Below are positions 23,928 to 62,883 of a stretch of 64,000 bases of DNA, one piece after another. The stretch's first letter is position 1, and each line of letters opens with the position of its first letter. The DNA is from Pontibacillus chungwhensis (GTDB lineage: Bacteria > Bacillota > Bacilli > Bacillales > BH030062), in NCBI RefSeq assembly GCF_030166655.1, contig NZ_CP126446.1, positions 1 through 64,000 of the forward strand, read 5' to 3'. The notes beneath the pieces are model-generated. The model ran no database searches. It was not told where the DNA came from and saw nothing but the letters and a program-made list of their open reading frames with translations. Made by a program: the position numbers and the translations under genes.

Positions 23928-23931
23928 TGTA

Positions 23932-23967
23932 AAGCCAAGTACATCCTTTTGTACTTGGCTTTTTTAT
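23932..23967 (+). terminator. Terminator after tatA
   Basis: AGCCAAGTACA pairs with TGTACTTGGCT and is followed by a T-run. Confidence 0.9.
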
Positions 23968-23993: not shown

Positions 23994-24427
23994 CCGCTTG
24001 GGCTTTTCTAATGTCTAGCTCCGGCAGGTAAAGGCTAGCGAGATAAGCAAACTACCTGCAGTGGCTAATCGCCACTTCCGGCAGTTTGCTTCTCCGGCCC
24101 CACAGGACGTGGGGTCGTTCGATGTTGTCACAGGATGTGACGTTCTTAGTCGAACTTCCTCATTTCCTTCAACCCGCCTGCGCTTTTCTAATGTCTAGCT
24201 CCGGCGGGTAGGACCTAGCGAGATAAGAAAAGCCACTGCAGTGAGACAAGCTCACTTCCGTGGCTTTTCTTATCCGTACGGTCCTGACCAACCCGCCTGC
24301 GCTTTTCTATGGTGTCTAGCTCCGGCTCCTAGCCCCTAGCGTCATAAGCAATCTAACTCCAGTGGCCTTCAGCCACTTCCGTTAGCTTGCTTATGCGTAC
24401 GGGGCTAAACAGTCGCCTGCGCTTTTC
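23994..24427. repeat. Three tandem copies of a palindromic repeat (cluster A)
   Basis: Three units, each opened by a CGCCTGCGCTTTTC-like box and GTCTAGCTCCGGC: A1 (about 23994-24173, long form), A2 (24174-24293) and A3 (24294-24427). Each contains an imperfect inverted repeat whose arms differ between units but still pair: AGGACC/GGTCCT in A2 (24210/24280), TAGCCCC/GGGGCTA in A3 (24330/24401). The inner stem centres on AGTGGC-type sequence. A1 carries two further hairpins, CCCCAC/GTGGGG and GTTCGA/TCGAAC enclosing GTCAC/GTGAC. No open reading frame is carried. The last box ends on the queF stop codon. No gene fills the 499-bp gap. Confidence 0.9.
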
Positions 24428-24924
24428 TATCTATTATCAATCTTCTCCGGATACATATCATGATTCATTAGGCGGTGTTCGGCCATTTTTTCGTACTTGG
24501 TGTTTGGTTTTCCGTAGTTGCAGTAAGGGTCGATTGAGATGCCGCCTCTTGGTGTGAATTTACCCCATACTTCAATATAACGAGGGTCCATAAGGTTGAT
24601 TAAATCGTTCATAATGATATTCATACTGTCTTCATGGAAATCGCCGTGATTGCGGAAGCTGAAAAGGTAAAGCTTTAAGGATTTACTTTCCACCATCTTT
24701 TCTCCTGGAATGTAACTAATATAAATGGTTGCGAAATCTGGCTGGCCTGTTTTAGGGCACAGTGTTGTGAATTCTGGGCAATTAAATTTAACGAAATAAT
24801 CTCGCTGTGGATGTTTGTTATCAAATGACTCTAATACGTCTGGGTCGTAATCAAATGAGTAACTCGTTCCTTGATTACCGAGTAATGTTACTCCTTCTAA
24901 TTCTTCGTCTTTTCTTCCTGCCAT
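24427..24924 (-). CDS. queF: NADPH-dependent 7-cyano-7-deazaguanine reductase QueF
   Basis: Reduces preQ0 to preQ1 in the queuosine tRNA-modification pathway. It is 165 aa, the size of the single-domain Bacillus type. The active cysteine is Cys56 in [13 protein letters not shown], with Asp63. The QueF motif reads [20 protein letters not shown]. The gene stands alone without queC, queD or queE. It is preceded by a preQ1-I riboswitch and attenuator, so the product of the enzyme probably shuts its own transcription. Its stop codon abuts repeat unit A3. Confidence 0.97.
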
Positions 24925-24989: not shown

Positions 24990-24992
24990 CGT

Positions 24993-25029
24993 CCTTTAGT
25001 TTTTTATAGAGGGTTTAGCTAGAACCTCT
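24993..25029 (-). promoter_or_regulatory. PreQ1-I riboswitch
   Basis: The minus-strand sequence AGAGGTTCTAGCTAAACCCTCTATAAAAAACTAAAGG matches the class I preQ1 aptamer: stem AGAGG/CCTCT, the C-rich loop, the A-rich tail that forms the pseudoknot, and CTAA. Ligand binding would favour the downstream terminator. The B. subtilis queCDEF leader has nearly the same sequence. Confidence 0.95.
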
Positions 25030-25177
25030 CCCAATTCGGAATGTCCTATACTGTTAATAACTTTAGTATATAAGGGGGAGTCAAAGGTGTCAACGCGCGC
25101 TAGTAACCTACTAAAAAGTTTTGATTTCTAGATAACGAGGTAAATTTGTAGAGAACACTCATTTAAGGAGGATTCTC

Positions 25178-45377: not shown

Positions 45378-45379
45378 AC

Positions 45380-45492
45380 AAAAGCGCAAGCGACCGCCTA
45401 GACCCGTACGGATAAGACAGATTTTCGAAAAAGGCTTTAGCCTTTGTAGAAAAGATGACTTATACGCTAGGGTCTGGGAGCTGGAGCTAGAC
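45380..45492 (-). repeat. Inverted copy of the palindromic repeat in the 23S-5S spacer
   Basis: Read on the minus strand this is the same repeat as before queF and ispE: GTCTAGCTCCAGC, arms CAGACCC/GGGTCTA (plus strand TAGACCC 45399-45405 and GGGTCTG 45470-45476), ATAAG/CTTAT, a central AAAGGC/GCCTTT hairpin (45430-45445) and the CGCTTGCGCTTTTG end box. It lies wholly within the rRNA transcript between 23S and 5S, so it must be transcribed at high level and removed in processing. Confidence 0.85.
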
Positions 45493-62429: not shown

Positions 62430-62883
62430 GGGGCGTACGACACTAAACAGTCGCCTGCGCTTTTCGTAGTGTCTAGCTCCGGCTCCTAGCCCCTAGCGTC
62501 ATAAGCAATCTAACTCCAGTGGCCTTCAGCCACTTCCGTTAGCTTGCTTATGCGTACGGGGCTGAACAGTCGCCTGCGCTTTTCGTTTATGTCCAGCTCC
62601 GGTGGGTAGAGGCTAGCGAGATAAGCAAACTACCTGCAGTGGCTAATCGCCACTTCCGGCAGTTTGCTTATCCGGCCCCACACGATGTGGGGTCGTTCGG
62701 CGTTGTCACAGGAGGTGACGTTCTTAGTCGAACTTCCGCTCTCTAACCCGCCTGCGCTTTTCGTAGTGTCTAGCTCCGGCTCCTAGTGTCTAGCGTCATA
62801 AGCCAGCTCCTCTCCAAAGGCTATCGCCTTTTCCGAAGATCTGGCTTATGCGTACGACACTGAACAGTCGCCTGCGCTTTTCG
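62430..62883. repeat. Tandem palindromic repeats before ispE (cluster B)
   Basis: Same family as cluster A. A 3' fragment B1 (about 62430-62465) is followed by B2 (62451-62583), nearly identical to A3 with arms TAGCCCC/GGGGCTG (62487/62558). B3 (about 62571-62760) is the long form with CCCCACA/TGTGGGG and GTCAC/GTGAC hairpins like A1. B4 (about 62750-62883) has arms TAGTGTC/GACACTG (62784/62856) and ATAAGCCAG/CTGGCTTAT. The last box ends some 10 bp before the ispE -10 (TACAAT, 62895-62900). No reading frame of note is present. Confidence 0.9.

Follow-up and report, generated by a model that had tools for sequence, protein, structure and literature searches.

A palindromic repeat family with covarying arms in intergenic arrays of Pontibacillus chungwhensis and related genomes: a possible mobile DNA hairpin

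Tandem units between a tatA-like and a queF-like gene

In the 64,000-nt stretch of Pontibacillus chungwhensis DNA that was analysed (contig NZ_CP126446.1, positions 1 to 64,000; the window), three head-to-tail units on the plus strand, here called cluster A, lie between a tatA-like and a queF-like gene, both named by eye. A terminator scan placed an intrinsic terminator 3′ of the tatA-like gene (23931-23962, plus strand; inverted repeat I4), and a 14-nt remnant left of the first unit (23995-24008, plus strand; a D3 copy) represents the 3′-end of a further, 5′-truncated unit. The units proper, all on the plus strand, are A1 (24013-24188, 176 nt), A2 (24193-24307; 123.3 bits) and A3 (24314-24427; 121.7 bits). 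Each runs from the 5′ box RTCYAGCTCCRGC through nested arms to a 3′ box ending in CGCTTTTC; the first-pass annotation of this DNA had thus correctly recognised tandem units with two fixed end boxes here, and the arms it quoted do pair (AGGACC/GGTCCT and AGCCAC/GTGGCT in A2, TAGCCCC/GGGGCTA and CTAAC/GTTAG in A3). A2 and A3 had fold z-scores of −8.6 and −7.9 against dinucleotide shuffles, with 0 of 200 shuffles equally stable. A1 is longer because a Bacillaceae-1 module (RF01690; 24099-24165, minus strand; 67.0 bits at a gathering score of 35) replaces the 3′ segment of its second arm. At its 3′ side A3 ends directly on the stop codon of the queF-like gene, which converges on it (24427-24924, minus strand; distance 0) and has a PreQ1 riboswitch upstream (24990-25034, minus strand), as expected for a queuosine gene.

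Further copies are found at two places in the window. Cluster B, entirely on the plus strand, begins with a 5′-truncated unit (62432-62465, left end approximate), followed by unit 1 (62471-62584; 120.9 bits), unit 2 (62591-62762, including Bacillaceae-1 at 62677-62743 on the minus strand) and unit 3 (62768-62882; 112.6 bits), the B4 of the first-pass annotation. Unit 1 is identical to A3 at 113 of 114 bases, 38 kb apart. A lone unit lies in a 23S-5S spacer, opposite to rRNA transcription (45379-45492, minus strand; 103.1 bits). A covariance model confirmed the proposal that this copy and cluster B (62471-62882) are members of the cluster A family. Against an expectation of 0.40, the window contains 6 occurrences of TCTAGCTCC. 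The A1-type composite with Bacillaceae-1 is seen again in cluster B and at L003, L015 and L016. Searching Rfam at gathering score over A1-A3, cluster B and the rRNA-spacer unit returned matches to Bacillaceae-1 only, and no description of the unit sequences was found in Rfam and the open literature, a search outside which most subscription papers lie.

Family spread and nearly wobble-free covariation

The covariance model, built from 28 units of the same genome, matched this genome 97 times at E ≤ 0.1; 83 units in 51 clusters remained once matches below 30 bits and echoes on the opposite strand had been removed. Copies are present in 35 of 41 genomes of the order (this one included) and 29 of 34 genera, at 0 to at least about 91 matches per genome and with arms of many sequences; G004, a member of the same genus, had none. 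A pattern scan found the family, among the matches listed, in Rossellomorea, Metabacillus, Sporosarcina, Planococcus, Pontibacillus, Shouchella, Geobacillus and others, together with some unrelated chance matches. An R1 search gave 201 matches in 100 of 118 loci, with no match at E ≤ 1e-5 in the 12 of 100 R1-searched loci that came from records outside the order. None of 46 clusters of the own genome and 20 of G012 lies within a called gene, gene calls being taken from our own ORF scoring; a few overlap a gene end by at most 35 nt, and one cluster had no gene call.

Units range from 113 to 176 nt and share a fixed hairpin foot, RTCY-AGC ... GCT-TTTC, with RTCY in nearly all aligned units. Examined as terminal inverted repeats, the unit ends pair imperfectly, with a fixed mismatched step. 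A subfamily of about 150 nt (subfamily 2) has its ends in common with the main family and a different middle. A second, longer palindromic-looking repeat family, GCGAGACTCCTGCGG ... GGAAAGCGAGT (L055, L037, L040-L042, L048-L050, L052 and others), carries units nested at one position, in 13 own clusters, and Bacillaceae-1 at another. In several genera the leftmost unit is preceded, at a distance of about 27-34 nt, by a TATA-like leader, AAGAAAGTATAAA (L070, L074, L090, L120, L184, L196, L358, L359, L365, L367, L371 and L375), a candidate promoter-like element or protein site; with up to 2 mismatches allowed, it was absent before the units of the own-genome loci examined.

Over the 28 own units, 96.9% of the cells in 34 pairs were paired against a shuffle mean of 74.7, and slid structures dropped to 35-50%. 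Changes on both sides were found in 24 of the 34 pairs and 196 cells, with 1 one-sided change, and the covariation score of 0.518 (0.128 in shuffles) was reached by 0 of 500 shuffles; the “further pair types” measure was not above shuffles (200/500) in the same units. The compensatory change that had been claimed as the mark of a selected fold is therefore borne out.

Compensatory change in structured RNA usually passes through G-U pairs, and G-T and A-C cells were therefore counted apart. Among 142 distinct units from many genera, 33 G-T and 53 A-C cells were found in 4379, with pairs 9-216 (mostly C.C), 29-191 (fixed G.T) and 49-171 set aside. A stricter count, one further pair being dropped by a 30% rule, gave 26 and 46 of 4097 (one-sided to two-sided changes, 24/905), and keeping all 34 pairs gave 161 and 133 of 4802, 124 of the G-T cells being the one fixed G.T. 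The underlying alignment comprised the best 150 of 201 matches, from 100 of 118 loci, fitted to the structure of the model. It includes Pontibacillus, with L157 carrying the same array as G006 (the G006 stretch L416 is identical letter for letter to part of the Pontibacillus chungwhensis record L157); without Pontibacillus loci the count was 32 G-T and 51 A-C of 4288. SRP RNA from 31 of these genomes, in contrast, had 480 G-T and 3 A-C cells in 2542 (one-sided to two-sided, 143/228), a G-T share of 18.9% compared with 0.6-0.8% in the units. An alignment-free G-U share of predicted pairs agreed, less sharply, with the aligned count: 3.8% for the top and 7.7% for the bottom strand of the units, 18.3% for SRP RNA and 13-15% for shuffled units. 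Pairing kept mostly Watson-Crick on both strands is a requirement of folded DNA and not of RNA, which argues that selection preserves folded DNA rather than RNA. The first-pass annotation had placed the fold either in RNA or in a DNA cruciform; the rarity of G-T, with A-C at least as common, unlike in SRP RNA, favours the DNA side and disfavours the RNA side. In subfamily 2 (7 copies) G-T exceeded A-C (21 and 4 of 335 cells), so its interior is less clearly DNA-like, and the middle may differ.

Two outer-stem mismatches are nearly fixed, T8.C217 in 135 and C10.T214 in 141 of 142 units. Copying from arm to arm would erase such mismatches, and their persistence disfavours it; the earlier statement that the arms are not mere copies gains support here that falls short of proof. 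On the bottom strand both read as G.A mismatches, and this strand folded better as single-stranded DNA in 4 of 4 units tried. An inner T-N-C/T-N-C loop was considered as a second fixed mismatch and rejected: among 28 own units, 20 have T.C and 21 have C.T, whereas a scan of units elsewhere gave 7 of 72.

The embedded Bacillaceae-1 is a 67-nt module that is also present without a unit and sits inside two repeat families (both window copies; L003, L015, L016, L028, L055-L061). In 19 copies, 1 G-T and 9 A-C cells were counted among 282, a wobble-poor covariation like that of the unit. RF01690 (Genome Biol 2010;11:R31) is classed as an sRNA in Rfam; by this count its RNA status is doubtful.

Array sites, polarity and orientation

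The tat-queF site bears arrays in the sister genomes G005 and G006 too, composed of different units in a different order and beginning directly after the T-run of the tatA-side terminator. The more distant G002, G003, G007 and G008 have other sequence at this site, with no unit within the 400-600 nt viewed. The same pattern of retained site and changed units was seen at further sister loci. Ten sites were compared at which an ortholog had been recognised, in both sisters for five of them and in one sister for the other five: the 21 own units there had their best match at the orthologous site in 5 cases, and orthologous-site units differed from size-matched random units by 0.01, positively in 11 of 21. 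Best matches at other sites averaged 88-89% identity. At all ten sites the sister genome was already array-bearing, and no dated insertion into virgin DNA outside the rRNA spacer was seen at them. In the 23S-5S spacer, empty and filled operons occur within one genome, G005. A minimal unit, its outer stem closed by a TTCG loop, was also observed in 23S-5S spacers (L255 in G001, L243 in G007), G001 carrying a full unit in another rRNA operon.

In a check for target-site duplication, left/right 5-nt identity was weakly raised (0.41 vs 0.34; 36 arrays), and the common prefix of spacer and right flank averaged 1.82 against 0.82 when shuffled (117 arrays). Insertion 3′ of terminators was rejected as a rule and holds at some sites only: a terminator-like hairpin lies near 9 of 71 leftmost units (those without a 3′-box remnant) and near 22 of 528 control positions.

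Arrays are polar. Among 42 box-defined arrays from own, G005 and G006 loci, about 10 of which look like chance matches, 22 have a 5′-cut, 3′-complete unit piece directly upstream and 1 has a 3′-cut piece downstream. The upstream pieces measure 13 to 112 nt; counting those under 95 nt, 14 arrays have one upstream and 1 downstream. The longest are mostly cut Bacillaceae-1 composites, and the 111-nt piece of L342 is probably a whole unit missed by the pattern. In named records from many genera, pieces under 95 nt lie upstream in 29 and downstream in 4 of 71 arrays, and pieces of at least 95 nt in 9 and 6. The polarity appears intrinsic to the element, since L339 and L019, two own arrays that run against replication, show the cut at the same end of the unit. 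Pairing of a 3′ arm with the 5′ arm of the next unit was tried and rejected (104 junctions; 5.33 of 6 for the own arm, 4.16 for the next and 4.11 for random arms).

Units are co-oriented with replication in two of the three genomes counted. In the own genome this holds for 29 of 32 clusters, excluding 6 rRNA-spacer copies (the 629675 copy among them) and 13 nested clusters; in G012 all 28 non-rRNA units are on the plus strand below 2.33 Mb and on the minus strand above 2.41 Mb (26/28 if the terminus is set at half length). In G003, 23 of 30 units are co-oriented, no more than a gene bias of 75% predicts. When upstream gene and replication conflict, the direction of replication is kept in 9 cases and that of the gene in 1 (own genome and G012 together, P = 0.02); the genes themselves are co-oriented in 38 of 51 cases at own loci and 16 of 27 in G012. 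Outside this count stand G017, mixed by eye, and G021 and G019, whose copies are mostly rRNA-linked; several of the few non-rRNA copies of G021 run, by eye, against replication. To account for fork co-orientation, units may insert into single-stranded DNA at the fork, or the orientation with the stabler hairpin on the lagging template may be lost.

The rRNA-spacer copies of the own genome, G005, G001, G012 and G021 all lie opposite to rRNA transcription. In G019, several of the copies near 94, 165, 325, 740 and 856 kb lie about 3 kb before the 23S end, opposite to transcription, perhaps in the 16S-23S spacer. Where the downstream gene opposes the unit, 12 of 14 own clusters and 5 of 9 in G012 have the 3′-end of the unit no more than 12 nt away from the stop codon of that gene; on the 5′ side, all 10 own convergent pairs leave 80 nt or more between unit and upstream gene.

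Enzyme candidates, competing readings and known systems

Genes that might move the units were sought in the 41 genomes. RAYT-like genes, searched with PF01797 and judged intact by a score and length rule, occur in 16 of the 17 genomes that have 20 units or more and in 7 of the 12 that have 2 or fewer (Fisher P = 0.056). As a partner the RAYT was rejected: of 34 RAYT-search loci (which include four repeats of an already-counted gene and one IS200-type), 1 has a unit nearby, and 6 of 9 scanned loci are flanked by other short palindromes. RAYT-like Y1 genes with palindromes of their own, such as 37-nt GGGTGTCTGGCACGC arrays or GGGACAGGTTCCTCGTCCC, were observed at L316, L317, L320, L321, L323 and L327. 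RVT_1 matched in 19 of 41 genomes and in 6 of 17 with at least 20 units, without a match in G000, G005, G006, G017, G027 and G038 (62 to 90 unit matches each among those listed). An IS91-type Y2 transposase occurs in 4 of 41 genomes (G007, G015, G029 and G038). Reverse transcriptase and IS91 transposase were rejected as movers because both are absent from the unit-rich G000, G005, G006, G017 and G027, though one of the two is present in certain further unit-rich genomes. A blastn search with one query found no unit in 72,556 plasmid and 50,697 phage records; the junction pattern turned up in 13 viral contigs, and a single weak R1 match of 16 bits among them is probably due to chance. The first-pass annotation had seen no protein in the unit and concluded that mobility must be supplied in trans. 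The location of clusters outside called genes and the shuffling of unit types among sites agree with it, whereas no trans enzyme was found and the three candidate families are unsupported.

We put at roughly one half the probability that the unit is a non-coding, non-autonomous mobile DNA-hairpin cassette akin to REP and MITE elements, which enters old array sites by one-ended copying with the enzyme supplied in trans; of this, the mobility in trans, the one-ended mode of copying and the folded strand as active form are what we infer. Selection would keep a long DNA hairpin with a fixed foot and a fixed mismatched step just above it, the arms being free to change if they pair. A putative protein would recognise the folded strand and copy the element from its constant 3′-end (...GCGCTTTTC), often halting short of the 5′-end. 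The copy would land beside the 3′-end of an existing unit, or beside a T-run or stop codon, and head-to-tail arrays would thereby grow at long-lived intergenic sites, with units gained, lost and exchanged faster than the sites. A bolder version, which we advance only tentatively, is a gene-free cassette system with fixed array sites and interchangeable hairpin units, in which a putative hairpin-specific enzyme would copy from the 3′-end in a replication-coupled manner and Bacillaceae-1 would be a swappable DNA module, not an RNA.

A serious rival, if on balance an unlikely one, is host-driven shuffling of old palindromes: terminator-like or replication-related elements maintained by the host, inherited vertically and exchanged by ordinary recombination, with no transposition. 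It would explain why sites are common to sister species, why the 3′-end is a stem followed by CTTTTC, why rRNA-spacer copies oppose transcription (as expected if the forward strand terminates) and why no enzyme was found among the families searched. Sequences of about 115 nt at 88-89% identity recombine poorly, however, which makes the units poor substrates for such exchange; empty and filled rRNA spacers in G005 also speak against it, the element-intrinsic 5′ truncation is left unexplained, and none of the 3′-ends of A1-A3 was called a terminator by the scan.

That the unit acts as a structured RNA, whether a 3′ UTR element, a processing site or a small RNA, we regard as improbable. The strong covarying fold and the embedded Rfam RNA family would suit it, as would the G-T excess of subfamily 2 and the many units that abut an opposing stop codon and would be transcribed as the 3′ UTR of that gene, but G-U is depleted on either strand, and both the copy range per genome and the diversity of arm sequences are at odds with it. 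It is very unlikely that the units are the REPs of the Y1 RAYT transposases in these genomes: the higher frequency of RAYT-like genes in unit-rich genomes points that way, against which stand the other palindromes at scanned RAYT loci, the single locus with a unit nearby, and G032, which has 50 units and no intact RAYT by the score and length rule. Least probable is a bacterial retroposon, in which target-primed reverse transcription of concatemeric transcripts would yield 5′ truncation and a constant 3′-end; the 5′-truncated pieces of the arrays, the terminator-like 3′-end and the TATA-like leader that several genera have about 31 nt ahead of the leftmost unit fit it, but six unit-rich genomes lack RVT_1 (though 6 of 17 have it) and the fold is conserved as DNA.

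If the mobile-hairpin reading is true, a family found in most sampled genomes of the order is a mobile DNA-hairpin element that has a polarity and array sites of its own and whose enzyme should be discoverable. The G-T versus A-C count offers a simple test to tell folded DNA from folded RNA in covarying repeats, and it is this test that puts the RNA status of RF01690 in question.

Compared with known systems, the units resemble REP/RAYT elements in being clustered intergenic palindromes with a short unpaired foot tag, and CGTC REPs are likewise described as lacking a dedicated transposase (PMC3733652). They differ from the REPs of that description in length (113-176 nt vs 20-40) and in having RTCY in place of the GTAG or CGTC tag of the two super-families at the foot (PMC3733652). 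The head-to-tail arrays with truncated left ends set them further apart, and RAYTs here serve other palindromes. With the bcr1-type MITE-like repeats, compared by description, they share occurrence in the Bacillus group, intergenic location and conserved stem-loops. The bcr1 repeat is reportedly mobile. Bcr1 is listed among Bacillus repeat families together with Bhal-1 and Bhal-2 of B. halodurans, given there as 74 and 76 bp (PMC2267715). The two Bhal families could overlap with the unit family.

IS91 and Helitron elements are rolling-circle transposons with one constant and one variable end, tandem copies and a hairpin near an end. Although the Y2 transposase is missing from 15 of the 17 genomes with at least 20 units (G000, G005 and G006 included), the unit likewise combines one constant end, a variable other end, tandem copies and a hairpin, and one-ended products with a constant end, an IS91/Helitron-like trait, are present in both sets of arrays (22 vs 1 of 42 and 29 vs 4 of 71).
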